Shown here piece after piece: positions 3,001 through 27,925 of a DNA stretch of 33,809 bases; positions within the stretch are counted from its first letter, which is position 1, and the number at the start of each line of letters is the position of its first letter. The stretch is from Sebaldella sp. S0638 (GTDB lineage Bacteria > Fusobacteriota > Fusobacteriia > Fusobacteriales > Leptotrichiaceae): the NCBI RefSeq assembly GCF_024158605.1, contig NZ_JAMZGM010000041.1, positions 1-33,809 on the forward strand. The letters run 5' to 3'. The notes under the pieces were generated by a model. It worked only from the letters and a program-made list of their open reading frames with translations. It had not been told where the DNA came from and made no database searches. The translations under genes were made by a program, and so were the position numbers.

Positions 3001-3210
3001 GAGGAAGAAAATGCCAGATTAGCAGCAATTGAAGATGGGTATCATAAATTGGCAAAGCCGGAAGAAGAAAAAGGATCGTTTACGGCAAAAGCAGCTATAG
3101 GAGTGGAGATAGAAGACAGATACGGAATATTTCTTACCGGGCAATACTCTGCAGGAAGTGATAAAGACAATGATTATAGAGCGGGAATAGCTTTGAAAGC
3201 AGTATTTTAA
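76..3210 (+). pseudogene. 5'-truncated autotransporter: passenger fragment plus beta-barrel
   Basis: This is the C-terminal part of a type Va autotransporter. The frame is open from TTG 94, but homology starts further upstream at about base 76 (ENSVVLLDSSS against KNSAVLLDAGS in the gene at 27926), so TTG 94 is probably not a true start. No ribosome site or signal peptide is present. From TTG 94, residues 1 to about 560 are short repeats of about 20-26 residues built on G(I/V)Y and NNG/NTG, typical of a beta-helix passenger. Residues about 570-750 form a linker. Residues about 760-1038 form an autotransporter beta-barrel ending in Phe, the usual outer-membrane C-terminal signature. By comparison with its paralogue it lacks about 1370 N-terminal residues. 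It could not be exported as it stands. The passenger/barrel identity is secure. Its status as a remnant follows from the junction at about base 75. Confidence 0.85.
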
Positions 3211-5320: not shown

Positions 5321-7612
5321 ATGAGCTATAAAACAATAGGGCAGAGTGTGGAAAGATGGGATGCAATAGCAAAAGTACAAGGAAAAGCAGACTATACAGC
5401 AGACCTGCCCAAGAAGAATGTGTTATACGGAAAAATTTTGAGAGCAACTATAGCCCATGGATTAGTAAAGAAGCTGGATGTCAGTGAAGCGTTAAAAGTA
5501 GAGGGAGTAATAAAAGTCCTAACTCCAGATGATCTGCCGGATTTTAAGTTTCCCACAGCAGGTCACCCGTATGCTCTTGACCCTAAACAGGCAGACATTG
5601 CAGACAGAAATATTCTTACGAAAAGAATCAGATTATACGGTGATGAAATAGCAGCCGTAATCGCTGAAAATGAGCTTGCAGCGGAAAAAGCACTGGAAAA
5701 AATAAAGGTAGAATATGAAGAATTTCCTTTTTATCTTTCACCGGAAGAATCACTTGCAGAAAGAGCAATGGAAATTCATGACGGAACAAAAAATTTAATA
5801 GCTTCTACAAAGGCCGTAGTAGGAGATTTGCAAAAAGGTCTGGAAGAAGCTGATCATGTAATAGAAGGAGAGTACAAAACACAGATAGTTCAGCACTGTC
5901 ATATGGAAAATCAGATTGCTTATGCCTATAAAGGTTCTGACCAGAGATGGGTTTGCGTATCATCAACACAGATACCGCACATCTGCCGTCGTATTTTAGG
6001 TGAAGCATTTGGAATGCCTTGGGGGCAATTCAGGGTAATAAAACCATTTATAGGAGGAGGTTTTGGTAACAAACAGGACGTTACTATAGAGCCGCTTGCT
6101 GTGGCCATGAGTATGGCTGTAGGCGGGGAGCCTGTAATGGTGGAACTTCAGAGGGAAGAAAGTATTGCATGGACAAGGGTAAGACACGCAATATCATATA
6201 AAACGAAACTTGGTCTGAAAAAAGACGGTACTATAACTGCAATGGAAATGGAAGCAATATCAAATAACGGGGCATATGCGTCACACGGACATTCTATAGC
6301 AGGAAAGGGAGCAGGAATATTACAGTCATTATATAAAATGCCTAATATGGAATATAATTCAAAAACTGTGTATACTAACACCGCAGCAGCAGGGGCAATG
6401 CGTGGATACGGAGTTCCTCAGGTAATATTTGCAATGGAATCAATGATCGAAAAAGCTGCGAAAGAACTGGGGATTGATCCTATTGAATTAAGAATGAAAA
6501 ATCTGGTAGAGCCGAATACAGAAAATCCTATAAGCCATGTAATGTTTTACTCTAACAAACTAAAAGAATGTGTAGAAGAAGGAGTAAAAGAGTTTGACTG
6601 GGATAAAAGAAAAGAAGAAGCGGAAAAACAAAAAACAGGAGATTTTCGAAGAGGTGTAGGTATGTCGGTATTTGCCTACGCTACAGGAGTATATCCAAAA
6701 AGTCTTGAGATAGGCGGATGCCGTCTTACATTAAATCAGGACGGGACAGTAAAACTAATGGTCGGAGCTACTGAAATAGGACAGGGGTCTGATACAGTAT
6801 TTAAGCAGATGGTAGCTGAAACTACAGGAATACCATATAATCATATTTATACGGATATGAATACAGATACGGATTATTCGCCTTTTGATACAGGGGCTTA
6901 TGCTTCAAGACAGAGTTATGTATCAGGAATGGCAGTAAGAAAAGCTGCTATAGAATTAAAAGAAAAAATACTCGATGCTGTTAAGAAATTTGATGATATA
7001 GATCCTCTTCATGCAGATATAGTAAACGGAAATATTGTGTATAAGCACAGCGGTGAAGTAATACAGAGTGTTGGTGATCTTGCGCTGAAATCTTATTATG
7101 ATCTTGCTAAAGGTGAATGTATAACAGCAGAAGTATCAAATAATTTCCATAGTAATTCAAATGCAATGGGAGCCACTTTTGCAGATGTGGAAGTAGATAT
7201 AAAAACAGGAAAAATAAAGATTTTAAATATACTAAATGTTCATGATTCCGGACAGATACTGAATCCTAAGCTCGCAAGCGGACAGGTAGAAGGCGGAATG
7301 GGAATGGCAGTCTCTTATGCCCTGGCAGAAGAGCTGAGATATGATGAAAAAACAGGAGCACCATTGAATAACAACCTGCTTGACTATAAAATGCCTACTT
7401 CTATGGATCTTCCCGATCTTCACACATTATTTGTAGAAGAGGATGACCCGATGGGGCCTTATGGAAACAAGGCACTTGGAGAACCGCCGATATGCAGTCC
7501 CGCAGCAGCAATCAGAAATGCCGTTTTGGATGCTATAGGTGTAGAGGTTGACGAACTCCCTATAAAACCTCAGAAATTAATGGAAATATTAAAAAATAAC
7601 GGGATAGTTTAG
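5321..7612 (+). CDS. xdhA: Xanthine dehydrogenase, molybdenum-binding subunit
   Basis: The large catalytic subunit (763 aa; E. coli XdhA is about 750) of a three-subunit xanthine dehydrogenase, which hydroxylates hypoxanthine/xanthine to urate or works in reverse on urate. Visible motifs are the aldehyde-oxidase/xanthine-dehydrogenase a/b hammerhead (residues 1-140), the cofactor loop GGGFGNKQD (245-253), substrate Arg361 in MRGYGVPQ, the ATEIGQG cofactor loop, and catalytic Glu721 in ALGEPP near the C-terminus. It is first in the operon xdhA-xdhB-xdhC. The xdhB ribosome site AGGAGGG overlaps its stop, 13 bases before xdhB. No molybdenum-cofactor maturation gene lies nearby. Family membership is firm. 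Purine substrate is inferred from subunit order and length, and another N-heterocycle is possible. Confidence 0.9.
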   Translation: MSYKTIGQSVERWDAIAKVQGKADYTADLPKKNVLYGKILRATIAHGLVKKLDVSEALKVEGVIKVLTPDDLPDFKFPTAGHPYALDPKQADIADRNILTKRIRLYGDEIAAVIAENELAAEKALEKIKVEYEEFPFYLSPEESLAERAMEIHDGTKNLIASTKAVVGDLQKGLEEADHVIEGEYKTQIVQHCHMENQIAYAYKGSDQRWVCVSSTQIPHICRRILGEAFGMPWGQFRVIKPFIGGGFGNKQDVTIEPLAVAMSMAVGGEPVMVELQREESIAWTRVRHAISYKTKLGLKKDGTITAMEMEAISNNGAYASHGHSIAGKGAGILQSLYKMPNMEYNSKTVYTNTAAAGAMRGYGVPQVIFAMESMIEKAAKELGIDPIELRMKNLVEPNTENPISHVMFYSNKLKECVEEGVKEFDWDKRKEEAEKQKTGDFRRGVGMSVFAYATGVYPKSLEIGGCRLTLNQDGTVKLMVGATEIGQGSDTVFKQMVAETTGIPYNHIYTDMNTDTDYSPFDTGAYASRQSYVSGMAVRKAAIELKEKILDAVKKFDDIDPLHADIVNGNIVYKHSGEVIQSVGDLALKSYYDLAKGECITAEVSNNFHSNSNAMGATFADVEVDIKTGKIKILNILNVHDSGQILNPKLASGQVEGGMGMAVSYALAEELRYDEKTGAPLNNNLLDYKMPTSMDLPDLHTLFVEEDDPMGPYGNKALGEPPICSPAAAIRNAVLDAIGVEVDELPIKPQKLMEILKNNGIV

Positions 7613-7625
7613 GAGGGTAAAAGGA

Positions 7626-8498
7626 ATGTATGATATAAAAACATATACTGAGGTAAATACTGTACTGGAAGCTGTGGGATTACTGGCAGATAATGAAAAT
7701 GCCCAGATAATAGCCGGAGGAACTGATGTTCTTATTAAATCAAGAGAGAGAAAAAACGGATATGTTGGAAGAGATTTAATTGGAATTACAAGAATTCCGG
7801 AATTAAAAGAGATTAAAACAGACAGTAACGGGGATATAATAATAGGAGCTGCAGCTACATTTACAGAAATAGAAGGTAATGAAATTATAATAAAGAACCT
7901 GAAAAGTCTGTCTGATGCAGTAGGAAGTGTGGGAGGACCCCAGATAAGAAACGTAGGGACAGTAGGAGGAAATATCTGTAACGGAGCTACTTCCGCAGAC
8001 AGTGCCTCGACATTGTTTGCCTGTGATGCAGTGCTTATGATAACAGGGAAAAACGGAAATAAAGAAATAGAGATAAAAGATTTTTATCTCGGGCCGGGAA
8101 AGGTCAGCCTTGAACAAGGTGACGTACTTAGGGCAGTAAAAGTTAAAAAGGAAAATTACGAAGGATATAAAGGGCATTATATAAAATTTAGCCCTAGACA
8201 GGCAATGGATATTGCTACATTGGGATGTTCTGTTTTATTAAAAGAAAATAACGGAATTATCGAAGATATAAGAATTGCCTATGGCGTAGCAGGGCCTACA
8301 CCGCTTCGGGCTGTGAATGCCGAGGAATTTGCCAAGGGAAAACAGATAAATGATGAAACATTGAATGAAATAGGTAAATTATGCCTTGAAAGTGCAAGAG
8401 CAAGAGATTCATGGAGAGCTTCCAAAGCATTTAGAGAACAGCTGGTGGAAGAACTGCCTAAAAGAGCTGTGAAAGCTATAGTCGGAGGTGGCAGATAA
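7626..8498 (+). CDS. xdhB: Xanthine dehydrogenase, FAD-binding subunit
   Basis: The 290-residue flavin subunit (about the length of E. coli XdhB) that passes electrons from the iron-sulfur subunit to its acceptor, NAD+ in well-studied relatives. The N-terminal FAD-binding loop is AGGTDVLIKSRE (about residues 31-42). The second FAD motif is GGPQIRNVGTVGGNICNGATSAD (about residues 103-125; the string spans the VGGN...SAD signature). A C-terminal CO-dehydrogenase-flavoprotein-type domain follows. It sits 13 bases after xdhA. Its TAA stop overlaps the ATG of xdhC by one base (TAATG), indicating translational coupling and a 1:1 complex. Confidence 0.9.
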   Translation: MYDIKTYTEVNTVLEAVGLLADNENAQIIAGGTDVLIKSRERKNGYVGRDLIGITRIPELKEIKTDSNGDIIIGAAATFTEIEGNEIIIKNLKSLSDAVGSVGGPQIRNVGTVGGNICNGATSADSASTLFACDAVLMITGKNGNKEIEIKDFYLGPGKVSLEQGDVLRAVKVKKENYEGYKGHYIKFSPRQAMDIATLGCSVLLKENNGIIEDIRIAYGVAGPTPLRAVNAEEFAKGKQINDETLNEIGKLCLESARARDSWRASKAFREQLVEELPKRAVKAIVGGGR

Positions 8499-8971
8499 TG
8501 GTAAAAAATATTACTTTTACTGTAAACGGTAAAGAATATAATATAAATGTAGATGTGAGAAAATCACTGCTTGAAGTATTAAGAGAAGAGCTGAATTTTA
8601 CCGGGACAAAACAGGGATGTGCAGTGGGAGAATGCGGGGCGTGTACCGTGATCATAGACGGTGTTACCGCAGATTCATGTATATACCTTGCTGTATGGGC
8701 AGACGGTAAAACTATTAAAACAATAGAAGGAGTGTCAGACCGCGGGGGAAATCTTTCTGATATTCAGGAAAGCTATATAGATGCAGGAGCAGTGCAGTGC
8801 GGATTTTGTACTCCCGGGCTGATACTTTCCACTGAGGTACTTCTTGATAATAAACCTGAGCCTACAAGAGACGAGATCAGAAGAGGTATCTCAGGGAATT
8901 TATGCAGATGTACAGGGTATCAGAAAATTATAGATGCTGTAGAAAAAACTGTAGAGAAAAGAAAAGGGTAA
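8498..8971 (+). CDS. xdhC: Xanthine dehydrogenase, [2Fe-2S] subunit
   Basis: A 157-residue iron-sulfur subunit that carries electrons from the molybdenum site to FAD. Its two cluster domains are clear. A plant-ferredoxin-like domain has Cys41, Cys46, Cys49 and Cys61 (GCAVGECGACTVI). A helical domain has Cys101, Cys104, Cys136 and Cys138 (QCGFCTPG and NLCRCTGYQ). All eight ligands are present, so it should be functional. The start overlaps the xdhB stop by one base. A terminator follows 12 bases after the stop, closing the operon at three genes. The protein is of the short bacterial type, not fused to FAD or Mo domains. Confidence 0.9.
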   Translation: MVKNITFTVNGKEYNINVDVRKSLLEVLREELNFTGTKQGCAVGECGACTVIIDGVTADSCIYLAVWADGKTIKTIEGVSDRGGNLSDIQESYIDAGAVQCGFCTPGLILSTEVLLDNKPEPTRDEIRRGISGNLCRCTGYQKIIDAVEKTVEKRKG

Positions 8972-13317: not shown

Positions 13318-13878
13318 TTGGAAATTTTTAGCATAGATATAGCAATTGTGGAGGGATTACAAAGGTTACAGGTTCCTGTGGCGAATCAAATTATGATGTT
13401 TTTTTCAGCAATTGGGAATGCAGGAATTGTATGGATAATTCTGGCACTGATTCTGGTAATGAGAAGAAAAACACGTAATTACGGTATAATTATATTAATT
13501 GCTCTTTTAATAACAGCAATTTTGGGAGAAGGAGTATTAAAAAATATTATAAAAAGAGACAGACCATTTGTAGCACTGAGTAATCTGAAACTTTTAATAG
13601 CGCCTCCGGCTTCTTATTCATTTCCGTCGGGGCATACAGCTTCTTCATTTGCAGCATTCGGAGTATTTTACTTTTTGAATATGCGGTATAAATGGGTGGT
13701 TTTTCTTACAGCATTTTTAATAGCTTTCTCAAGAATGTATTTGGGAGTGCATTATTTTTCAGATATTATCGGAGGAATAATTTTAGGGCTGGGAGTTTCG
13801 TATGTTGTATGCAGCTATTACAAAAAGAATTCTGATAAAATAAATTCAAATAAATTTATAAAAAAATTGTTGAACTAA
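13318..13878 (+). CDS. PAP2-family membrane phosphatase (undecaprenyl-pyrophosphate or lipid phosphatase type)
   Basis: A 186-residue integral membrane phosphatase with about five hydrophobic segments. The three PAP2 motifs are complete: K75-(6)-R82-P83, P103-S-G-H106, and S138-R139-(5)-H145-(3)-D149. His145 would be the nucleophile and His106 the acid. Small bacterial members dephosphorylate undecaprenyl pyrophosphate, phosphatidylglycerol phosphate or lipid A on the outer face of the inner membrane; the sequence does not decide which. The start is TTG 13318, or possibly ATT 13324, which has better spacing from AAAGGAGG. Either start aligns with the N-terminus of the paralogue at 15646. It is a single-gene unit. 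Confidence 0.85.
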   Translation: MEIFSIDIAIVEGLQRLQVPVANQIMMFFSAIGNAGIVWIILALILVMRRKTRNYGIIILIALLITAILGEGVLKNIIKRDRPFVALSNLKLLIAPPASYSFPSGHTASSFAAFGVFYFLNMRYKWVVFLTAFLIAFSRMYLGVHYFSDIIGGIILGLGVSYVVCSYYKKNSDKINSNKFIKKLLN

Positions 13879-15645: not shown

Positions 15646-16215
15646 ATGTTAAATGTTTTGGATCAGGTAGTGGTAAACACTGTAAATATAATTCAGAATC
15701 CTTTGTTAGACAGGATCATGATATTTTTTACTTCATTAGGAGATAAAGGAATTATATGGATAATGTTATTAATAATTTTATCTGTTAAAAAAGAAACAAG
15801 AAAAACAGCAGCAGCAATGACAGTATCAGTTATAATTGTCTTTATAATTACAAATTACTTAAAAGATACATTTCAAAGAATAAGACCATATGAATACATG
15901 CATTTTATACCAAAAGTGACCACCTCAGGTACATCATCATTTCCTTCGGCACACAGTGCAGTGGCATTTGCAGTCTTTGGAATATCTTATTTTTATAAGC
16001 TGAAATTTAGATACATAATAGGTGTTATTGCCCTTATGATATCAGTATCCAGATTTTATCTGGAAGTTCATTATTTTACTGATGTTTTGGCAGGAGTGAG
16101 TCTGGGCTTTATTATTTCTTATATCTTATTTTATATTCCTGAAGTAATGGTAAAACATATCAGAATAAATAATCTTCATTTATATAAAAGATTTTTTCCA
16201 AGAGAAAAACGGTGA
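15646..16215 (+). CDS. PAP2-family membrane phosphatase (second paralogue)
   Basis: A 189-residue integral membrane protein collinear with the PAP2 protein at 13318: same length, same FFTS-GDKGIIWI opening, same spacing of motifs. Motif 1 is K73-(6)-R80-P81. Motif 3 is S135-R136-(5)-H142-(3)-D146. Motif 2 is P100-S-A-H103, where the usual Gly is Ala; both histidines are kept, so activity is expected. The role is again a lipid or polyprenyl (pyro)phosphate phosphatase of the inner membrane. It has its own promoter region and no obvious strong terminator. The two copies probably arose by tandem duplication and may have split substrates. Confidence 0.85.
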   Translation: MLNVLDQVVVNTVNIIQNPLLDRIMIFFTSLGDKGIIWIMLLIILSVKKETRKTAAAMTVSVIIVFIITNYLKDTFQRIRPYEYMHFIPKVTTSGTSSFPSAHSAVAFAVFGISYFYKLKFRYIIGVIALMISVSRFYLEVHYFTDVLAGVSLGFIISYILFYIPEVMVKHIRINNLHLYKRFFPREKR

Positions 16216-16352
16216 ATAACAAAGGAAAACTAATGATTAAATAAAATATAAGAAATTTAAATAAAAAATTTATACAAAAAAACTGCTGCTAATATTGCAG
16301 GGAAAAGCACTGATTAATAAAAAATAATTCAGCGAAATAAAAATAAAATCTA

Positions 16353-16381
16353 TTGACTTACTTCTTTATATTTGTTAAACT
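16353..16381 (+). promoter_or_regulatory. Promoter of the pyrimidine operon leader
   Basis: TTGACT (16353-16358), a 17-bp spacer and TAAACT (16376-16381), with an extended TGT directly upstream of the -10. Transcription would start near 16388, about 200 bases before the attenuator. Between the second PAP2 stop (16215) and this promoter there is AT-rich spacer with a weak CTGC/GCAG hairpin (16283-16300). Confidence 0.65.
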
Positions 16382-16421
16382 GATAGAAATGTAAAAATAA
16401 AAGAGAGGAGTAAGAGCGAAA

Positions 16422-16604
16422 ATGTCACTAAACTTTATAAAAGAAAAAATTGTCGAAAAGATAAAAGATATTTTTAAAAGTTCTGATTATTTTACTTACT
16501 TATTCGTACTCTTAGTTATTAAGATTACAGAGAATTTTAATTTTTACAATTACTTTATATTTTTAAATAATAAACATAATAAGAATAATGGTTATTTTAG
16601 TTAA
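16422..16604 (+). CDS. Putative pyr operon leader peptide (attenuation)
   Basis: A 60-codon frame with GAGAGGAG upstream (11 bases from ATG, a little far). It starts soon after a good promoter and ends inside the loop of the terminator hairpin at 16581-16623, before carA. The message is very U-rich (runs of UUU, UAU and UUA; protein rich in Phe, Tyr, Leu, Ile and Asn), with one hydrophobic stretch, YFTYLFVLLVIKI. In E. coli pyrBI, low UTP slows RNA polymerase on a U-rich leader so that the translating ribosome catches up and blocks the terminator. The arrangement here is the same. It could instead be a small membrane protein or chance. Function is inferred from layout only. Confidence 0.5.
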   Translation: MSLNFIKEKIVEKIKDIFKSSDYFTYLFVLLVIKITENFNFYNYFIFLNNKHNKNNGYFS

Positions 16605-16623
16605 TAATTATTATTCTTTTTTT
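16581..16623 (+). terminator. Attenuator hairpin upstream of carA
   Basis: AAGAATAAT (16581-16589) pairs with ATTATTCTT (16610-16618) over a 20-nt loop, followed by a run of seven Ts (16617-16623). The leader-peptide stop codon (16602-16604) lies in the loop, so a ribosome finishing the leader would cover both arms. The stem is AT-only and therefore weak, which would suit a conditional terminator. Confidence 0.6.
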
Positions 16624-16748
16624 ATGATCATTTAGTGCTTTGAGTGATTTGTTAATAATAATATAAATCAGAAATAAGTATAAGTGTTTTGACAGAGTCA
16701 GATATCAATTATTTAAATATTAAGTTAGACAAAACATTAGGAGGAATT
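16624..16748 (+). promoter_or_regulatory. Possible second promoter and carA ribosome site
   Basis: A TTGACA box (16689-16694) lies after the attenuator but has only a poor -10 (TTTAAA at 17 bp or TAAATA at 19 bp). If used, it would bypass attenuation. AGGAGG (16739-16744) fixes the carA start at ATG 16749. Confidence 0.3.
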
Positions 16749-17804
16749 ATGAAAGCAAAACTGATTTTAGAAAACGGCATGATTTTTCACGGTGAAGCTT
16801 TCGGTTATCTGGAAGAAACAGTAGGTGAACTTGTATTTACCACGGTTATGACAGGATATCAGGAAGTACTTACAGATCCGTCTTATTACGGACAGATAGT
16901 GGTTATGACTTACCCGCTTATCGGAAACTACGGTATTAATCTCGAGGACATGCAGTCTGACAGGGTAAGGGTGAAGGGATTCATAATAAAAGAGGATGCA
17001 AAATTACCGAATAATTTCAGGTGTGAAATAACTCTTGAGGCGTATTTGAAACAAAATAAAGTAATGGGATTAAAAAATATAGATACAAGACATCTTACAA
17101 GAATAATAAGAAATACAGGAACAAAAAAAGCAGTAATCACAACAAGAGATTTGTCACAGGAAGAGCTGAAAAATATATTTTCATCATTTTCAAATGCTGA
17201 TGCAGTACAGCAGGTCACAAGAAAAGATATTCTGGAAATAAAAGGCAGCGGTGAGAAAATAGCAATAATGGACTTTGGAATAAAGAGACATATAATAGAA
17301 TCGTTTGCAAAAAGAAACTGTGATGTAAGGGTATTTCCTGCTGATACAAAATATGAAACAATAATGGAATATAACCCTGAAGCATTATTTTTGTCAAACG
17401 GGCCGGGAGATCCGGAAGATCTTCCCGAAGTAATAGAGCTTGTAAAAAAAGTCATAGGAAAAAAGCCGGTAATAGGAATATGTCTCGGACATCAGATAGC
17501 AGCGCTTGCTATGGGCGGAAAAACTGCGAAAATGAGATTCGGTCATAGAGGAGGAAATCATCCTGTGAAAGATATAGAAAAGAATAAAATATATATAAGT
17601 TCGCTAAATCATGGTTATAAGGTAACTGAACTTCCAGAAGGTGCGATACTTAGTCATGTAAATCTAAATGACAATTCTGTGGAAGGATTGAAAAATAAGG
17701 AATTAAAAGTATATACAGTACAGTTTCATCCGGAAGCATCACCGGGATCGGAAGAAACAGCGTACATTTTTGATGATTTTCTAGATATGATAAGAGAAAG
17801 CTAA
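16749..17804 (+). CDS. carA: Carbamoyl-phosphate synthase, small (glutaminase) subunit
   Basis: A 351-residue glutaminase that releases ammonia from glutamine for carbamoyl phosphate synthesis. The N-terminal CPSase small-chain domain (1-150) includes EETVGELVFTTVMTGYQEVLTDPSY. The class I amidotransferase domain has LSNGPGDP, nucleophile Cys245 in GICLGHQ, and His327/Glu329 in QFHPE, so the catalytic triad is complete. I start it at ATG 16749 with AGGAGG 4 bases upstream; the longer frame from TTG 16689 adds 20 residues lying over the TTGACA box and has no ribosome site. It is the first enzyme gene of the nine-gene pyrimidine operon, 27 bases before carB. Confidence 0.95.
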   Translation: MKAKLILENGMIFHGEAFGYLEETVGELVFTTVMTGYQEVLTDPSYYGQIVVMTYPLIGNYGINLEDMQSDRVRVKGFIIKEDAKLPNNFRCEITLEAYLKQNKVMGLKNIDTRHLTRIIRNTGTKKAVITTRDLSQEELKNIFSSFSNADAVQQVTRKDILEIKGSGEKIAIMDFGIKRHIIESFAKRNCDVRVFPADTKYETIMEYNPEALFLSNGPGDPEDLPEVIELVKKVIGKKPVIGICLGHQIAALAMGGKTAKMRFGHRGGNHPVKDIEKNKIYISSLNHGYKVTELPEGAILSHVNLNDNSVEGLKNKELKVYTVQFHPEASPGSEETAYIFDDFLDMIRES

Positions 17805-17831: not shown

Positions 17832-20800
17832 ATGAAAAATAATTCTATAAAAAAAGTGCTTGTAATAGGATCAGGGCCTATAGTAATAGGACAGGCAGCA
17901 GAATTCGACTATTCGGGTACACAGGCATGTGAAGCACTGAGAGAAGAAGGAATAGAAGTAGTTCTTATAAATTCAAATCCGGCAACTATAATGACAGACA
18001 GCAAAACAGCAGATAAGGTGTATATAGAGCCGATGAACATACAAACAATAGAGAAAATAATAGCACGGGAAAAACCAGACTCACTGCTTCCGGGAATGGG
18101 CGGTCAGACTGCACTGAATCTGGCTGTAGAGCTGAAGGATTCGGGAATACTGGAAAAATATAATGTAAATATAATCGGGACATCGATAGAATCCATAAAA
18201 AAAGGTGAAGACAGAGAACTTTTCAGGGAAAGTATGATGAAAATAGGGGAACCTGTAATAGATTCCAGTATAGTGATGAATCTCGAAGACGGGCAGGATT
18301 TCGCAGCAAAGATCGGATATCCGGTAGTGGTAAGACCTGCATATACTCTGGGTGGGAGCGGAGGAGGAATAGCGGCAAATCCTGAGGAACTGAAAGACAT
18401 ACTTCTGAAAGGTCTCCAGCTGTCAAGAGTAGGACAGGTTCTTGTGGAAAAATCAATACTGGGATGGAAAGAAATAGAATACGAAGTAATAAGAGATAAA
18501 GACGGAAATTGTATAACTGTATGTAATATGGAAAATATAGACCCTGTGGGAATACATACAGGAGACTCAATAGTAACGGCGCCGTCGCAGACTCTTTCCG
18601 ATAAGGAATATCAGATGTTAAGAACTTCGTCTATAAAAATAATAAATGAGATAGGTATAGTAGGAGGATGTAATGTCCAGTTTGCACTAAATCCCACATC
18701 ATTTGAATACGCCATAATCGAAATAAATCCAAGGGTATCAAGATCATCAGCGCTGGCTTCCAAAGCAACCGGCTATCCAACAGCAAGGGTAGCAGCAAAA
18801 CTTTCACTGGGATATACTCTGGATGAAGTAAGAAATGAAGTAACAGGAGAGACATTTGCCTGTCATGAGCCTGCCATTGATTACGTAGTAGTGAAGATAC
18901 CAAAGTGGCCGTTTGATAAATTTCAGAAAGTGGATAGAAAACTCGGTACAAAGATGATGGCAACCGGGGAAATAATGGCAATAGGAAATAATTTTGAGAG
19001 TGCTTTTCTAAAAGGGATAAGATCACTGGAAATAAACCGTGATAATCTGATGCATCCGGCTTCGGCAAAAAGAAGTCTCGAAGAACTGAAAGAGAGAATA
19101 CAAAAGCCTGACGATGAAAGAATATTTGATCTTGCAGAAATGCTGAGAAGGGGATATGTAAAAAGACAGCTTGCCAAACTTACGGGAATTGATATTTTCT
19201 TCATAGAAAAGATAGAGTGGATAGTAAAGCAGGAAGAGCTTTTGAAAGAGATGTCATTTAATGACCTTGGGGCTGAATGTCTGAAAAAACTCAAGAAGAA
19301 AGGTTTTTCCGATAAAGGAATAGCAGAGCTTATGGGAGTGAGTACAGAAGATATACGGCTGAAAAGAAAAGAATACGGGATAAAACCTGTCTATAAAATG
19401 GTTGATACATGTGCAGCGGAATTCGAGGCAGTTTCTCCTTACTATTATTCTACTTATGATGATTATGACGAAGTGGTAATAAGCAACAGACGAAAGATAA
19501 TAGTGATAGGGTCAGGGCCGATAAGAATAGGGCAGGGAATAGAGTTTGACTATTGCACTGTTCATAATATAGCAGCTTTGAAAAAAATGGGGATAGAATC
19601 AATAATAATAAATAACAATCCTGAGACTGTATCAACTGATTTTTCCACTGCTGATAAGCTCTACTTCGAACCGCTTACAGCTGAGGATGTCTTGGAAATA
19701 GTAGAGAAAGAAAAACCGGAAGGCGTGATTCTTCAGTTCGGCGGGCAGACAGCAATAAAGCTCGCAGGTGAACTGACAAGAAAAGGAATAAAAATAATAG
19801 GGACGTCTTTTGAAAAAATAGATGAAGCTGAAGACAGAGAAAAATTCGATAAGCTTATAGACCGATTGGGAATAAAAAAACCAAACGGCAAAGCTGTGTG
19901 GAATGCGGAAGAAGGAATAAAAATAGCAGAAAATATAAAATATCCTGTCTTGGTAAGACCGTCTTATGTACTCGGAGGACAGGGAATGGAGATATGCTAT
20001 GACGAATATAACCTGAAAAAATATCTTGAGTCTGCATTTTACAGAGATACTGATAATCCCGTTCTAATAGATAAATATCTGAATGGAGCAGAGATAGAGG
20101 TAGATGCTATATGTGACGGTGAAGACATACTGATACCAAGTATAATGGAACACCTTGAAAGAGCCGGTGTCCACTCCGGAGATTCGATTACTGTGTGTCC
20201 TACTCAGAATGTAAGTGAGGATATAAAGAAAAAAGTGGTGGAAACTACAAAGATACTGGCAAGAGAACTGGAGATTTTCGGGATGATAAATATACAGTTT
20301 ATAGCATATAAAGAGGAACTCTACATAATAGAAGTAAATCCGAGATCTTCAAGAACAGTACCGTATGTTTCCAAAATAACAGGAATTCCCATGATTGAAC
20401 TGGCAACAAGGGCAGCATTGGGAGAAAAGCTGAAAGATATGGGATACGGCACGGGAGTATATAAAGAACCAAAGCTTATAGCAGTGAAGGTGCCTGTATT
20501 TTCCACTGAAAAAATAGAGGGAATTGAAATATCTTTAGGGCCTGAAATGAAATCAACAGGAGAAGTGCTGGGAGTAGGGAAAACTTATGAGGAGGCTGTA
20601 TACAAAGGACTTCTTGCAGCAGATAAAAAATACCCCGAAAGCGGAAAAAAAGCTCTGGTAACTTTGAATGACAATGATAAGGGAGAATTCCTGCCGCTTG
20701 CACAAAAACTTCTTGAACAAAAATATAAACTTTTTGCGACAGAGGGGACATACCGGTTTTTGAAAGAAAACGGAATAGAGTCTGAGATCATAAATAAGAT

Positions 20801-21041
20801 CAGAGGAAACTCGCCGAATATAATTGATAAACTGAAAAACAGAGAAATAGATATATTAATAAATACACCCACAAAAGCAAATGACTCGCAAAGGGACGGG
20901 TTTAAAATAAGAAGAACTGCTGTGGAATATGGAATAGAAGTGCTTACATCACTGGACACGCTAAATGCAGTATTAGGAATACTGGAAAAAGGACTGCATA
21001 AAAAAGATACAGAAATTTACGAAATGAACAGTCAAAAATAA
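17832..21041 (+). CDS. carB: Carbamoyl-phosphate synthase, large subunit
   Basis: A 1069-residue synthetase (family about 1070) making carbamoyl phosphate from ammonia, bicarbonate and two ATP. The internal duplication is plain. The first half (about 1-550) has [20 protein letters not shown], the MGGQTALN loop and an ATP-grasp domain. The second half has [24 protein letters not shown] and a second ATP-grasp. The C-terminal MGS-like allosteric domain covers about 940-1069 ([16 protein letters not shown]), the region where UMP and ornithine act in E. coli. CAGGAGG lies before ATG 17832. All core motifs look intact. Confidence 0.96.
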
Positions 21042-21177: not shown

Positions 21178-22113
21178 TTGAAAAAGTCTAGAAAAGATAT
21201 TATTTCAATGAGAGATATGAGCAAGGAAGAAATACTTCATATTTTGAAAATATCTGAAGAGGTGGAAAATGATAATAACAAGGGGGAGCTGTTAAAAGGG
21301 AAAATCATATCAACATTGTTTTTTGAGCCGAGTACGAGAACAAGATTATCTTTTCAGTCAGCAGCACAGAGACTGGGGGCTCAGGTATTAGGTTTTGATT
21401 CTCCGGACGGAACATCGGTAAAAAAAGGAGAAACACTGTCTGATACAATAAGAATGGCTGAATCTTACTCAGATCTTATTGTAATAAGACATCCTCTTGA
21501 CGGATCCGCAAGAGTGGCGGCAGAAACTTCGAGAGTACCTGTGTTAAATGCAGGAGATGGGATAAATCAGCATCCGAGTCAGACACTGCTTGATTTATAT
21601 ACGATTCTGAAAGAAAAAAAGACTTTGAATAATCTGAAAATAGCATTTGTGGGGGATTTGAAATATGGAAGAACGGTACACTCACTGGTAAAAGCTATAA
21701 GCCATTTTAATCCGAAAATATACTTTATAGCACCTGAGATACTGAGAATACCTGAATATATAACAGATGACCTGGAAGAACTCGGGATAGAATATGAAGT
21801 GCTTGAGGACTTTAGGGAATGTCTTGCAGATATAGATGTATTCTATATGACAAGGGTTCAGAAAGAAAGATTTCCTGATGATGAAGAGTATGAGAAGGTA
21901 AAAGGGATATATGTTATTTCAAAAGAAAACATACTGGGAAAATGTAAGGATGATATGATAATACTTCACCCGCTTCCAAGAGTGGACGAGATAAATACTG
22001 ATCTGGACGATACTAAACACGCACTTTACTTTCAGCAGGCAAAAAACGGAGTTCCCGTAAGACAGGCAATGATGCTCGTGGCGCTTGGAATAAAAGAAAA
22101 AATAGAAGGGTAG
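21178..22113 (+). CDS. pyrB: Aspartate carbamoyltransferase, catalytic chain
   Basis: A 311-residue enzyme condensing carbamoyl phosphate and aspartate, the committed pyrimidine step. The carbamoyl-phosphate site FFEPSTRTRLSF (about residues 43-54), the HPSQTLLDLYTI segment and HPLPRVDEI near the C-terminus are the standard signatures. It starts with TTG 21178, with AAGGAGG 7 bases upstream. It is followed after 9 bases by pyrI, so the holoenzyme should be the E. coli-like dodecamer of catalytic and regulatory chains, subject to nucleotide control. Confidence 0.95.
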   Translation: MKKSRKDIISMRDMSKEEILHILKISEEVENDNNKGELLKGKIISTLFFEPSTRTRLSFQSAAQRLGAQVLGFDSPDGTSVKKGETLSDTIRMAESYSDLIVIRHPLDGSARVAAETSRVPVLNAGDGINQHPSQTLLDLYTILKEKKTLNNLKIAFVGDLKYGRTVHSLVKAISHFNPKIYFIAPEILRIPEYITDDLEELGIEYEVLEDFRECLADIDVFYMTRVQKERFPDDEEYEKVKGIYVISKENILGKCKDDMIILHPLPRVDEINTDLDDTKHALYFQQAKNGVPVRQAMMLVALGIKEKIEG

Positions 22114-22122
22114 TGAAAAAAT

Positions 22123-22572
22123 ATGGAATTACAAATATCTGCGATAAAAAATGGAACTGTAATAGATCACCTTCCTACAGATACAGCTTTGAAAGTGGTA
22201 GAAATACTTGATCTGAAAAATTTTAAAGAAACTGTAACAGTGGCATTTAATCTTACAAGCAATTCGCTGGGAAAAAAAGGGATAGTAAAGGTAGCATGCA
22301 GAACTCTTACAGAGGAAGAGCTGGAAAAAATATCTCTGTTAGCTCCGGGAGCAACTATAAATATAATAGAGGACTTTAAGGTAAAAGAAAAAAAAGAAGT
22401 TCCCGAACCAAGGGAAATAAATGGTATACTAAAGTGTAACAACAGCAGATGCATAACAAACAGCGAAAATGTGAAAACCAAGTTTATGAATGAAACTGAC
22501 AGCCATGGGAGAAAATACAGATGTGTTTATTGTGAAAAAGTGATAAAATATACAGATATAATATTAAAATAA
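22123..22572 (+). CDS. pyrI: Aspartate carbamoyltransferase, regulatory chain
   Basis: A 149-residue nucleotide-binding regulatory subunit. An N-terminal allosteric domain (1-95) is followed by a zinc domain with Cys105, Cys110, Cys134 and Cys137. This is the same spacing as in E. coli (109, 114, 138, 141), so it should bind the catalytic chain. ATP activation and CTP/UTP inhibition are known for E. coli and inferred here. The ribosome site is weak (GAAGGGTAGTG over the pyrB stop), suggesting translational coupling with pyrB. Confidence 0.95.
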   Translation: MELQISAIKNGTVIDHLPTDTALKVVEILDLKNFKETVTVAFNLTSNSLGKKGIVKVACRTLTEEELEKISLLAPGATINIIEDFKVKEKKEVPEPREINGILKCNNSRCITNSENVKTKFMNETDSHGRKYRCVYCEKVIKYTDIILK

Positions 22573-22594: not shown

Positions 22595-23410
22595 ATGGCA
22601 AAGTTTTTAGATGATGTAAAAATTCTGGAAAACAGAGAGATAGGAAAAGACAATTATCTGCTGAGGGTAAAAATGAGCGACGGCTGTGCAGTACCTAAAG
22701 CAGGACAGTTTTATCTTCTGAAATGCCGTGACGGAGCAAAAATTTTGAAAAGGGCGATAAGTCTCCATTGTGTTAATGAAAATGAAAAAATTCTTGAGTT
22801 CGTATATAAAATAACAGGAAAAGGTACTAAGGAAATATCAGAGTATAAAAAAGATGAGTACATAAATATACAGGGACCTCTGGGAAAAGGTTTTGATACA
22901 GGTGTAAAAGATAAAACAGCTGTGATTATAGGCGGAGGCATAGGTCTTGCTCCGCTGAAACAGCTTATTAACAATATAAAAGAAGGTAACAGAATAGTAT
23001 TTATAGCAGGAGGGAGAGATATAGAAGCCCTGAAAATACTGGAAAACTTTGATATAGAAAATGTGGACGTGAGAATATGCAGTGATGATGGAAGTGCAGG
23101 GGAAAAAGCCTTTGTAACAGAGCTTCTTGAGAATTATCTGGAAAAAGGAGCAGCTGATATTATATACACATGCGGGCCGCATATAATGATGGAAAAAATA
23201 TCGGAAATTGCTGAAAAAAATAATATACATTGTGAGATTTCCATGGAAGAAAGAATGGCATGCGGAGTGAAGGCATGTGTAGGGTGTTCCATAAAAACCA
23301 AAACGGGTATGAAAAAGGTATGTCATGACGGTCCGGTATTTGACAGTAAAATTATAATAAAAAACGCTCCTTATACAGAAGGAGAAACGTGTAATGCGAA
23401 GTGCATATAA
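22595..23410 (+). CDS. pyrK: Dihydroorotate dehydrogenase B, electron-transfer subunit
   Basis: A 271-residue FAD/[2Fe-2S] protein that takes electrons from PyrD and reduces NAD+. It has a ferredoxin-reductase-like FAD domain (1-100, with RAIS in the flavin motif), an NAD domain (GGGIGLAPL at 113-121, TCGP at 192-195) and a C-terminal iron-sulfur motif with Cys223, Cys228, Cys231 and Cys243. All four ligands are present. AAAGGAGGG lies before ATG 22595. Together with the adjacent class 1B pyrD it indicates an NAD-linked dehydrogenase, as expected for an anaerobe. Confidence 0.94.
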   Translation: MAKFLDDVKILENREIGKDNYLLRVKMSDGCAVPKAGQFYLLKCRDGAKILKRAISLHCVNENEKILEFVYKITGKGTKEISEYKKDEYINIQGPLGKGFDTGVKDKTAVIIGGGIGLAPLKQLINNIKEGNRIVFIAGGRDIEALKILENFDIENVDVRICSDDGSAGEKAFVTELLENYLEKGAADIIYTCGPHIMMEKISEIAEKNNIHCEISMEERMACGVKACVGCSIKTKTGMKKVCHDGPVFDSKIIIKNAPYTEGETCNAKCI

Positions 23411-23446
23411 AAATAAAACGGGAAAAAATAAATGCGAGGTGGAATT

Positions 23447-24400
23447 TTGAATTTTTTGAAAACAAATTTTGCAGGTTTGAATCTGGAAAATCCTATAATG
23501 ACTGCAAGCGGATGTTTTGGATTTGGTTTGGAATATAAAGATTATTTTGATCCGAATGAACTCGGAGCAATTCTGATAAAGGGACTTACCCCTGAGCCAA
23601 GAGACGGAAATTTTGGGATAAGAATAGCGGAGACTCCGGCAGGAATGCTGAATTCCGTGGGATTGGAAAACCCAGGAATAGATTATTTTGAGAAAGAAAC
23701 AGCTCCGTTATTGGAAAAAGAGCTGAAAGTACCAGTAATAGCAAATATAAACGGGAAGATTCTGGAAGAATATATAGAAATAGCCCAAAGAGCAGAGACT
23801 ATAGATGTAATAAAAGCAATAGAGCTGAATATATCATGCCCTAATGTAAAGGACGGAGGTATGGCATTCGGCGCTAATCCTGATATGGCTGCGAGAGTAA
23901 CAAGGGAAGTGAGAAAGGTAACCAAAAAGCCGCTGATAGTAAAGCTGTCACCTAATGTTACCGATATAGCTGGGATTGCAAAACTGGTAGAGGCCGAGGG
24001 TGCAGATGCATTATCACTGATCAATACACTTCTTGGAATGTCTATAGATATAAATAAAAAGAAACCTTTACTCGGAAATATATTCGGCGGGTTATCAGGG
24101 CCTGCTGTAAAGCCTGTAGCGCTCAGAATGGTATATCAGGTGTCGAATGCCGTGTCGATTCCTTTGCTTGGAATGGGAGGAATAAGCACTACAGAAGATG
24201 CGCTGGAATTTTTTATGGCAGGTGCTTCGGCAATATCTGTAGGAACAGGATTTTTTCAGAATCCTCTTTCAGCTGTAGAAATAAAACAGGGACTCATTGA
24301 ATACTGTGCAGAGAATAAGCTGGCAAATATAAGTGAAATAGTTGCGTATGCTCATACAGATGACGGGAAAGCATACAGGAAAAGAATTTTTTCAGAATAA
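23447..24400 (+). CDS. pyrD: Dihydroorotate dehydrogenase B, catalytic subunit
   Basis: The FMN enzyme oxidising dihydroorotate to orotate; class 1B because it pairs with PyrK and has the Cys of NISCPNVK as catalytic base. Other signatures are NPIMTASGCFGFG near the N-terminus, ANINGK, KLSPNVTDI, and the FMN phosphate loop GMGGISTTEDALEF. The frame is open from ATG 23432, but the best ribosome site (GAGGTGG, 23436-23442) lies inside that extension and points to TTG 23447, giving 317 residues and the usual short N-terminus. ATG 23432 (322 residues) remains possible. It lies 36 bases after pyrK. Confidence 0.93.
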   Translation: MNFLKTNFAGLNLENPIMTASGCFGFGLEYKDYFDPNELGAILIKGLTPEPRDGNFGIRIAETPAGMLNSVGLENPGIDYFEKETAPLLEKELKVPVIANINGKILEEYIEIAQRAETIDVIKAIELNISCPNVKDGGMAFGANPDMAARVTREVRKVTKKPLIVKLSPNVTDIAGIAKLVEAEGADALSLINTLLGMSIDINKKKPLLGNIFGGLSGPAVKPVALRMVYQVSNAVSIPLLGMGGISTTEDALEFFMAGASAISVGTGFFQNPLSAVEIKQGLIEYCAENKLANISEIVAYAHTDDGKAYRKRIFSE

Positions 24401-24418: not shown

Positions 24419-25126
24419 ATGAAAGCAAGGAAAAAGGTAATAACGGCACTTGATTATAAAAATATGAGTGATGTAAAAAATCTCGTGACGCTTTTGGGAG
24501 ATGAAATAGAGTATTATAAAGCGGGGCTTGAGATATTTTTGAATACAGGGGGAGAAATAGTAGACTATCTGCATTCTATGAATAAAAAAATTTTTTTGGA
24601 TCTAAAATTTCATGATATAAATAATACAACTAAAATGGCTTGTGAATTCGCAGCAAGAAAAGGGGTGTTTCTCTTTAATATACACGCCTCATGTGGAACG
24701 GAGACTATGTCTGAGATTTCAAAAATGCTGAAAGATATGGATTCAAAGAGTTTATGCATAGCGGTAACAGTATTGACAAGCATGACAGAGAAAAAAATGC
24801 AGGAAACTTTTATGACTGACGTAAGTCTGAATGACATGGTAATGAATATGGCAGAGCTTACCAGTAAAAGCGGACTTCACGGTGTAGTATGCTCTGCACT
24901 GGAAGCAGCAAAGGTAAAAGAAAAATGCGGTGAAAACTTTGTGACGGTTTGTCCCGGAGTAAGACCGGCATGGTCTGTTTCAGATGATCAAAAGCGAATA
25001 ATGACACCTGCCGAAGCTGTAAAAAACGGTGCGGACTATCTTGTAATAGGAAGACCAATAACAAAAGCCGATGATCCTAAAAAAGCCGCAGTGAGAATAC
25101 TGGAGGAAATAGAAACTGTATTATAA
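24419..25126 (+). CDS. pyrF: Orotidine 5'-phosphate decarboxylase
   Basis: A 235-residue TIM-barrel enzyme producing UMP, the last step of the pathway. The N-terminal strand ITALDYKN carries the first phosphate/ribose Asp. FLDLKFHDINNT is the catalytic Lys-Asp array (DxKxxDI). VCPGVRP and VIGRPITKADDP form the phosphate-binding end. It belongs to the bacterial type 1 group of about 230-240 residues. GGAGGGTG precedes ATG 24419, 18 bases after pyrD. Confidence 0.95.
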   Translation: MKARKKVITALDYKNMSDVKNLVTLLGDEIEYYKAGLEIFLNTGGEIVDYLHSMNKKIFLDLKFHDINNTTKMACEFAARKGVFLFNIHASCGTETMSEISKMLKDMDSKSLCIAVTVLTSMTEKKMQETFMTDVSLNDMVMNMAELTSKSGLHGVVCSALEAAKVKEKCGENFVTVCPGVRPAWSVSDDQKRIMTPAEAVKNGADYLVIGRPITKADDPKKAAVRILEEIETVL

Positions 25127-25147: not shown

Positions 25148-26404
25148 ATGCTGTTACGAAATGGAACTCTGGTTAACGGGGAAAAAACAGATATCTTGAT
25201 AATAAATGGCAAAATATATCTTATGAAAAAGGAAATAGATGTTTTTGAAGCTGGCAGGATATTTGCGGAGATTACTGGTGAGGAATTAAAAGTAATAGAC
25301 ATTGAAAATAAATATATAATGCCCGGAGTTATAGATGTACATACGCATATGAGAGATCCAGGATTTACACATAAAGAAGATTTTCTAAGCGGGTCAAAGG
25401 CATGTGCTAAGGCCGGGATAACTACGTTTATAGATATGCCTAATACTAATCCGGCAACTGTAACGAAAGAAGCTTTGGAATTGAAAAGAAAAAGTGCTGG
25501 TGAAAAATCCGTGGTGAATTTCGGGTTTCATTTCGGAGGAAGCAGTGATAATAATGCTGGGGAAATAAAAAAGGTAAGCGGAGTTTTGTCTACAAAGGTT
25601 TTCCTGAATGTAAGTACAGGAAAAATGCTTGTGGAAGATGACAATGTGCTGGAAGATATAGTAAAAGCCGCGAACTTTTTAACTGTTCATGCAGAAGGCG
25701 GGATGATCAATAAAGCTCTTGAATTTAATAAACAGTTTGGGAAAGGTCTTTATGTATGTCATGTTTCTTCAAGGGAAGAAATGAATATCTTAATAAAGGC
25801 AAAAGCTGATAAAGTGTTAAATAATGAAAAACATCCTGTATTTGCGGAAGTTACCCCTCATCATCTGTTTTTGGACGAAGAGATGAAAGATTCGGATGAG
25901 GAAAAAAAGATGCTTTACAGAATGAAACCTGAGCTGAAAACAAAAGCAGACAGGGAATATCTGTGGGAATGTATAGGAAACGGCGCTGTAGATACTATAG
26001 GGACAGATCATGCACCACATCTTATAAGGGAAAAGATGGAAAAAATAACTTTTGGAATGCCCGGTGTGGAAACTTTGCTGGCTTTAATGCTTACAGCGTA
26101 TAATCAGGGAAAGATAAGTCTTGAAAAAATACAGGAGTTAATGTGCGGGAATCCTGCGAAAATATTTGGGATAAAAAATAAAGGCGTGTTGAAAGAAGGA
26201 TATGATGCTGATATTATAATAGTAGACACTAATGAAAAATGGATAGTAAAAAAAGAAGACTTATTATCAAAGTGCGGATGGTCTCCATATGAAGGCTGGG
26301 AATTAAAAGGGAAAAATGTTTTGACAATAGTCAACGGGAATATTGTTTATAAAGACGGAAAAATATTTGAAAATAAAGGGAAGGAAGTCGAAATTGATGA
26401 ATAA
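25148..26404 (+). CDS. pyrC: Dihydroorotase
   Basis: A 418-residue amidohydrolase cyclising carbamoyl aspartate to dihydroorotate. Metal ligands and signatures appear in order: DVHTHMRDPG (two His), FIDMPNTNP, HAEGG, CHVSS, EVTPHHLFL, and the Asp of GTDHAPH. It is of the long type I (B. subtilis-like) form rather than the 350-residue E. coli form. The terminal eight bases overlap the start of pyrE, so the two are translationally coupled. Confidence 0.94.
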   Translation: MLLRNGTLVNGEKTDILIINGKIYLMKKEIDVFEAGRIFAEITGEELKVIDIENKYIMPGVIDVHTHMRDPGFTHKEDFLSGSKACAKAGITTFIDMPNTNPATVTKEALELKRKSAGEKSVVNFGFHFGGSSDNNAGEIKKVSGVLSTKVFLNVSTGKMLVEDDNVLEDIVKAANFLTVHAEGGMINKALEFNKQFGKGLYVCHVSSREEMNILIKAKADKVLNNEKHPVFAEVTPHHLFLDEEMKDSDEEKKMLYRMKPELKTKADREYLWECIGNGAVDTIGTDHAPHLIREKMEKITFGMPGVETLLALMLTAYNQGKISLEKIQELMCGNPAKIFGIKNKGVLKEGYDADIIIVDTNEKWIVKKEDLLSKCGWSPYEGWELKGKNVLTIVNGNIVYKDGKIFENKGKEVEIDE

Positions 26405-27020
26405 TAAAGAAAAAACTGCAAAAATTCTTTTTGATTTGAAGGCGGTAAAAATAAACGTAAAGGAACCATTTACATTTTCTTCGGGAATAAAAAGTCCTAT
26501 TTATTGTGATAACAGGGTAATATTAGGATATCCTGAGGCAAGAGACGGGATAGTACAAGGATTTCTTAGTATTATAGATGCAGAAAATACTGATGTAATA
26601 GCCGGTGTAGCAACTGCGGGAATATCATGGGCAGCTTTTATAGCGGAAAAACTCGGGAAACCAATGGCTTATGTAAGAAGCAAACCGAAAGGGCACGGCG
26701 TGGGACGACAGATAGAGGGAGCTGAGATTGCCGGGAAAAGAGTAGCAATAATAGAAGACCTTATATCTACCGGCGGAAGCAGTATTAATGCAGCAGAAGT
26801 GTTGAGAAAGTCAGGTGCTGAAAGTGTAGAGGTAAAGGCTATTTTTTCATATAATTTCAAAAGTGCTTATGAGAATTTTGATAAGATTAACTGTAAATGG
26901 GATACAATATCGAATTTTGATATTTTGATAGAGCTGTTAAAAAATGAAAAATACCTTAGTGAAGGAGAAGCAGAAACTGCTTTGGAATGGAACAAGAATC
27001 CTGAGAGCTGGGGAAAATAA
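26397..27020 (+). CDS. pyrE: Orotate phosphoribosyltransferase
   Basis: A 207-residue enzyme joining orotate to PRPP to give OMP. The PRPP loop is VAIIEDLISTGGSS (acidic pair followed by TGG). The flexible catalytic loop YVRSKPKGHGVGRQIEG contains the conserved Lys residues and a His. It starts at ATG 26397, inside the last codons of pyrC, with AAGGGAAGG (about 26378-26386) upstream. The longer frame from TTG 26343 lies wholly in pyrC and has no ribosome site. It is the last gene of the operon. Confidence 0.94.
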   Translation: MNNKEKTAKILFDLKAVKINVKEPFTFSSGIKSPIYCDNRVILGYPEARDGIVQGFLSIIDAENTDVIAGVATAGISWAAFIAEKLGKPMAYVRSKPKGHGVGRQIEGAEIAGKRVAIIEDLISTGGSSINAAEVLRKSGAESVEVKAIFSYNFKSAYENFDKINCKWDTISNFDILIELLKNEKYLSEGEAETALEWNKNPESWGK

Positions 27021-27861: not shown

Positions 27862-27925
27862 TAGGAGCGAAAATTTAATAGAAATTTAGCAAAAAAATAC
27901 TAAGAAAATGGAAGGATTAAGAAGT

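Follow-up and report, generated by a model that had tools for sequence, protein, structure and literature searches.

The window, by which we mean the whole stretch of DNA analysed (33,809 nucleotides from Sebaldella sp. S0638), contains nine pyrimidine genes behind one leader, each scoring above an NCBIfam cut-off. The leader and the genes, all on the forward strand, are listed here by position with the evidence for each.

16353–16381, forward: promoter-like TTGACT-17-TAAACT with TG before the second hexamer (weak match, position kept in relatives)
16405–16410, forward: Shine-Dalgarno sequence GAGGAG of the leader frame (read from the sequence, within conserved GAGAGGAG)
16422–16604, forward: leader frame of 60 codons, MSLNFIKEK...NNGYFS, with its stop in the terminator hairpin (counterpart frames in G024, G025 and G026)
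16491–16580, forward: U-rich 90-nt stretch leading up to the hairpin, where RNA polymerase is proposed to pause (T composition)
16581–16623, forward: proposed attenuator, a 16-bp hairpin (16581–16618) and then TTTTT (folding energy, covariation)
16749–17804, forward: carA (TIGR01368, 450.8 bits, cut-off 307.35)
17832–21041, forward: carB (NF003671, 1548.6 bits, cut-off 599)
21178–22113, forward: pyrB (TIGR00670, 381.2 bits, cut-off 236.95, scanned from 21199; a later start codon is possible)
22123–22572, forward: pyrI, regulatory chain of aspartate carbamoyltransferase (TIGR00240, 160 bits, cut-off 148.55)
22595–23410, forward: pyrK, electron transfer subunit of dihydroorotate dehydrogenase (NF000798, 226.1 bits, cut-off 219)
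23432–24400, forward: pyrD (NF005574, 423.6 bits, cut-off 269, scanned from 23441)
24419–25126, forward: pyrF (NF001273, 283.8 bits, cut-off 193)
25148–26404, forward: pyrC (TIGR00857, 306.3 bits, cut-off 279.05)
26391–27020, forward: pyrE (TIGR00336, 118.8 bits, cut-off 106.8)

The genome is 4.27 Mb in size, and its CarA is 79% identical to that of a Sebaldella MAG and 93% identical to that of G026. By eye, the two very large repetitive proteins of the window (1038 and 1946 aa; 94–3210 and 27908–33748) are autotransporter-like, and three adjoining frames at 5321–8971 resemble subunits of a xanthine dehydrogenase or molybdenum hydroxylase. Two similar membrane proteins (13318–13878 and 15646–16215), the second immediately upstream of the pyr promoter, look like PAP2-type phosphatases.

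The predicted promoter matches the consensus at 9 of 12 positions, a weak match that is by itself at chance level (seven promoter-like sites in 16000–17000, against 6.9 from shuffles), but its position is conserved in four aligned Sebaldella-group sequences. These four sequences also have GAGAGGAG in common, which includes the GAGGAG found 11 nt before the leader ATG at 16422. The frame ends with TAA at 16602–16604; none of 200 shuffles of the window leader yielded such a frame, and its peptide gave no NCBIfam match. The whole frame had been described as U-rich, which applies to its second half, whereas the first half is A-rich in the pool of 105 leaders introduced below. For the zone equivalent to 16491–16580, mean T was 0.47 in the carA leaders of genus g1 (n = 3) vs. 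0.25 in carA.

The hairpin has its 5' arm at 16581–16596, its loop at 16597–16602 and its 3' arm at 16603–16618, followed by TTTTT. Folding of 16570–16630 gave −16.1 kcal/mol (z −6.0), and 0 of 200 shuffles were equally stable. Coordinates, folding and shuffles thus confirm a frame with a ribosome site and a terminator hairpin upstream of carA, with two details amended: the base pairs are nearly, not wholly, AT-only (one G-C and two G-U pairs), and the stop codon begins on the last loop base, with its remainder in the 3' arm. The roughly 100 nt between attenuator and carA (16624–16740) are missing in G026. A TTGACA near 16689, with a second hexamer that is poor by eye, may be a promoter beyond the attenuator or mere decay.

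Occurrence of the leader in Fusobacteriota

We compared the heads of carA and pyrB among 98 Fusobacteriota genomes. A leader frame was counted if it had at least 25 codons, a ribosome site, and a stop located from 12 nt upstream to 45 nt downstream of the stem. carA was present in 78 genomes (E ≤ 1e-60), and 71 of the 89 listed matches were fetched, the remainder being those of 12 g6 genomes (of 13), the second copies of G074, G076, and G077, and fragments at contig ends from G040 and G067 (two). An intrinsic terminator lay within 150 nt of carA in 58 of the 71 heads, and 57 of these 58 had a leader frame, against 0.97 expected when the 260 nt before each hairpin were shuffled. The sole miss came from the script's choice of another hairpin; locus L121 of G070, where the nearer hairpin has a frame though the script picked another, was excluded from the counts. 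The 13 heads lacking a terminator comprise ten with a CarA 44–48% identical to the query, two of genus g23 (59–62%), and G097, where carA comes after pyrE. CarA identity is no clean divide, as G081 is also at 48% yet has the leader.

pyrB was present in 85 of the 98 genomes. We fetched 70 of the 88 matches, setting aside 13 inside carA regions already fetched, a fragment in G091, both matches of G096, and the second matches of G083 and G095. Leaders preceded 48 of these 70 heads, after hand correction of the script's 49: the flagged rows of G083 and G084 were removed, their frame being by eye the end of an upstream gene, and the G018 head was counted although its ribosome site had failed the script. 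Over both genes, 105 leaders were found in 65 of the 98 genomes and 19 of 29 genera, and 37 genomes have a separate leader at each of the two heads. Of the 105 stop codons, 75 are within the hairpin, 16 precede it by at most 10 nt, and 14 follow it. On this comparison the leader architecture is established, and what the relatives keep is the arrangement of frame and hairpin, not the peptide sequence.

A single leader stands before a nine-gene unit in Sebaldella (G000, G026, G024), in G073, and in G004. No pyrI was seen in the unit of G077, and genus g25 has carAB-pyrB. Most heads in family f2 precede carAB alone, with pyrB-K-D-F-C-E elsewhere behind a separate leader. Contigs that end early, e.g., in G079, limit how far an operon could be followed. 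The original prediction placed the whole nine-gene pathway under the leader; that arrangement was seen only in Sebaldella and two other genera, and most other heads belong to separate carAB and pyrB operons. Across the sequences compared, the leader is not confined to the nine-gene operon and occurs over the phylum beyond the window's own family. A frame ending at a terminator recurs in the Leptotrichiaceae as it does phylum-wide, with the exception that genus g6 of this family, which we take to be Leptotrichia-like, has pyrB heads without a leader; a strong pyrD match is absent in 10 of its 13 genomes. In genus g23, carA and pyrB are present with neither such a leader nor a PyrR over the cut-off.

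The two g23 carA heads (L098 of G085, L126 of G083) have no terminator or leader frame and share a similar stretch, AAGTTTAG..., just before carA, which may be another control element. In G025, a Sebaldella-type leader (L158) sits directly before pyrB, and its incomplete genome gave no carA match at E ≤ 1e-60. Loci of xanthine/uracil permeases in the window's genome (nine matches, eight loci) were considered as further targets and rejected, with seven of the eight free of a leader and one giving a weak, U-poor hit.

Uracil content, the proposed mechanism and its competitors

Terminators close before carA or pyrB differ from the others in the fetched DNA. A frame of up to 90 codons ending at the hairpin accompanied 106 of 126 of the former (96 with T ≥ 0.45) vs. 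12 of 380 of the latter, two of them U-rich, one of which is the second carA leader of G059. Over the 90 nt preceding the hairpin, T averaged 0.515 for the 106 pyr-head leaders and 0.312 for 375 of the 380 other terminators, 18 of these 375 also reaching 0.45. Averaged over the 105 leaders, T is 0.25–0.34 from −180 to −91 relative to the stem and 0.45–0.58 from −90 to −1, where C is not raised. For 101 of 105 leaders, the second half of the frame has a T content attained by less than 1% of equally long segments in the gene downstream. The excess extends to synonymous choices, with T/(T+A) at fourfold sites of 0.564 in leaders vs. 0.419 in genes and ATT/(ATT+ATA) of 0.626 vs. 0.394. These pooled codon tests count related genomes as independent and were therefore repeated by genus: the leader exceeds its own gene in U in 27 of 28 genus-by-operon groups (Wilcoxon p = 1.5e-8), and 25 of 28 have a U excess at synonymous positions (p = 4.1e-7). 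The one group less T-rich than its gene is the carA head of G004 (genus g5, L083), whose 31-codon frame has its stop in the hairpin and is U-poor (T 0.21). From the rise in T and the synonymous-site excess, we conclude that U is preferred as a nucleotide in these sequences, in the stretch adjoining the terminator in front of pyr genes, as sensing of UTP by polymerase slowing needs.

Attenuation by a leader frame that senses UTP is a textbook mechanism from enterobacteria. The Fusobacteriota leader has the features of the pyrBI type, namely a terminator before the first pyr gene, an overlapping frame with a ribosome site, a U-rich zone, and no antiterminator. We consider it highly probable that it attenuates transcription in the manner of E. 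coli pyrBI, sensing UTP through coupled translation. In the window, RNA polymerase would start just after 16381 and a ribosome would load on the leader frame. When UTP is low, the polymerase would slow where the frame is U-rich, in its second half, and the ribosome would catch up; by translating to the stop in the hairpin, it would cover the 5' arm, block the terminator, and let the pyr genes be transcribed. When UTP is high, the polymerase would run ahead, the hairpin would form, and transcription would stop before carA. With the stop inside, shortly before, or after the hairpin, a ribosome that terminates there or passes by would be expected to mask the 5' arm. What we infer in this model is that the frame is translated, that the polymerase pauses, that the ribosome occludes the hairpin, and that the system responds to UTP, hence UTP sensing itself; the layout conserved in relatives and the failure to find PyrR in the window's genome support the pyrBI-like reading.

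Among the other readings, each of which we consider improbable, the one that fares best is that the leader is a non-specific sensor of coupling, reporting general translation capacity, with its U-richness a by-product of AT-rich hydrophobic coding. The occlusion geometry would indeed answer any change in ribosome or polymerase speed, the G004 frame does without U-richness, and a hydrophobic peptide in an AT-rich genome also gives U-rich codons, so that the synonymous-site excess alone separates the two readings and fails to do so in three of 28 groups. Against such a general role, the leader hardly occurs in the DNA examined other than ahead of carA and pyrB, and the excess is found in the other 25 groups.

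Slightly harder to credit is an arrest peptide or small protein whose sequence matters, with a ligand acting on the ribosome-peptide complex to set termination. The peptides are hydrophobic and the frame is kept open across the phylum, as this would require, but their sequence is weakly constrained, which disfavors it. Over 21 leader pairs, restricted to equal-length frames differing at 4–30% of sites, pN/pS was 0.49, vs. 0.063 for the genes behind (19 of these pairs had a gene value). The lower pS of the leaders (0.19, vs. 0.39 in the genes) fits a constraint on nucleotides. By eye, the carA and pyrB leader peptides of one genome look unrelated (37 genomes with both), there is no common motif among genera, and the NCBIfam negative for the window's peptide points the same way.

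Amino-acid attenuation of the trp/phe type, in which a ribosome stalled at codons for Phe or another amino acid decides whether antiterminator or terminator forms, finds some encouragement in the share of Phe codons close to the hairpin (21% over the final 90 nt). It is disfavored because upstream pairing of the 5' arm is no stronger than in shuffles (mean z 0.11, with 3 of 105 below −2). Moreover, the genes behind the leader make pyrimidines, the U excess occurs at synonymous sites too, and, with the stop at, in, or past the hairpin, a ribosome finishing the frame would block the terminator and not allow it. We thus judge this reading very unlikely. The hairpin, for its part, is held as a structure in the sequences compared: in 15 hairpins, hand-picked so that the count is illustrative, 10 of 16 pairs had two-sided changes (matched by 0 of 500 shuffles), and 96.5% of cells pair.

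PyrR, which many Gram-positive bacteria use, scored over the NF003549 cut-off in three of the 98 genomes, all of genus g14, with the next best match at 51 bits against 138. The three lack this leader, and none is among the 65 leader genomes. The RNA element RF00515 exceeded its threshold in two of the three and fell just under it in the third, and no leader frame accompanies the terminators that precede pyrB in g14. Leader and PyrR do not co-occur in this set, a single evolutionary contrast that involves one PyrR genus. For the window's genome, we rejected PyrR control, as the original prediction had it, with protein and RNA element both below threshold: the best NF003549 match had 41 bits against 138 and belongs to a hypoxanthine phosphoribosyltransferase by TIGR01203, other PyrR models were far below their cut-offs too, and RF00515 was not found, the whole-window Rfam scan at gathering scores being empty. 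A weak RF00515 match in G071 is far from its pyr genes. That PyrR-type attenuation was missed by the models is the least credible reading, even though the same genes are concerned, g14 and two Alkaliphilus genomes have PyrR (g14 with the RNA element), the phylum-wide protein search used one model (NF003549; related ones were added for the window's genome), and the Rfam scan over many genomes, with stricter filters and 33 candidates scored per genome, could miss weak elements.

An extension to Alkaliphilus was not counted. The carA (L004) and pyrC (L004, L002) heads have a frame and a terminator, with T before the hairpin of only 0.34–0.38, both genomes have PyrR over the cut-off, and the L004 leader contains TCCAGAGAGGC, presumably a PyrR-binding motif.

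Known attenuators and the place of the leader in the phylum

Like E. coli pyrBI, with its leader frame pyrL, the Fusobacteriota leader has a frame with a Shine-Dalgarno sequence overlapping an intrinsic terminator just before pyr genes, and the same script detected pyrL, plus a second overlapping frame there. The two differ in geometry, as pyrL stops after its hairpin and the Fusobacteriota frames mostly within it. The Fusobacteriota hairpins are AU-rich and their frames much richer in U than pyrL, and they act on carAB and larger operons. T in the 90 nt before the E. coli hairpin is 0.34, mildly U-rich in a less AT-rich genome, so the known mechanism does not strictly depend on being very rich in U. 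Work by Donahue from 1994 reportedly dealt, to go by its title, with nucleotide-specific pausing in the pyrBI leader. The window's leader peptide gave no local alignment with E. coli PyrL at E ≤ 100, which for short U-biased peptides is a weak negative; we therefore class the leader as working like pyrBI and not as its homologue. At the expected start site of the window, no run of U was read from the sequence, and hence there is no sign of the reiterative transcription for which pyrBI is known (as described in PMC6245113). Suppression of the pyrBI terminator by coupled translation is described in PMC5021804 (citing Roland 1988).

Bacillus-type PyrR attenuation (RF00515) likewise places a terminator before the same genes but needs both PyrR and its RNA element, neither of which was found in the window's genome. 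Attenuators of the trp type share the leader peptide and the terminator; the present leaders differ from them in having no antiterminator that we could find and a stop at or within the terminator. The carA motif of Polynucleobacter (SRC-12-1) is also an RNA element before carA, set apart by its description as an extended imperfect hairpin of beta-proteobacteria (in the account of PMC8632094).

The open-access literature yielded no report of such a leader in Fusobacteriota, subscription journals lying largely outside this search. Neither Fusobacteria nor pyrB appears in the main text of a survey devoted to premature terminators (PMC2965389), and that of an F. nucleatum transcriptome study with term-seq data, which gives 663 termination sites, has no pyrimidine, uracil, or carA (PMC11005410). 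What appears to be new here is pyrBI logic in a different phylum, with a different geometry, wider use, and no sequence relation found; that UTP-dependent coupling is at work we regard as likely.

With somewhat less assurance, we favor the view that UTP-sensing attenuation is the Fusobacteriota standard, that it predates the split of the main families, arose independently of enterobacterial pyrBI, acts on at least two operons per cell, and was replaced by PyrR in one genus. If it is the standard control of the phylum, transcription and translation would be physically close in Fusobacteriota, and the leader would offer a natural sensor for their coupling, which to our knowledge has been little studied in these bacteria. 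The same logic in 19 genera of another phylum, with no sequence relation to PyrL found, suggests either great age or repeated invention. We name the leader as the probable regulator of the de novo pyrimidine pathway in Fusobacteriota, and the model predicts short leader RNAs that can be checked in existing term-seq data.

Some genomes hold variants of the leader side by side. G061 (L095/L130), G058 (L096/L131), G059 (L099/L129), and G070 (L107/L121) have two carAB copies each, every copy with its own leader; the paired leaders differ in the first three and are alike in G070. The carA heads of G053 and G054 (L101, L102) have near-identical leaders, in which a small insertion shifts the stop from inside the hairpin to just before it.
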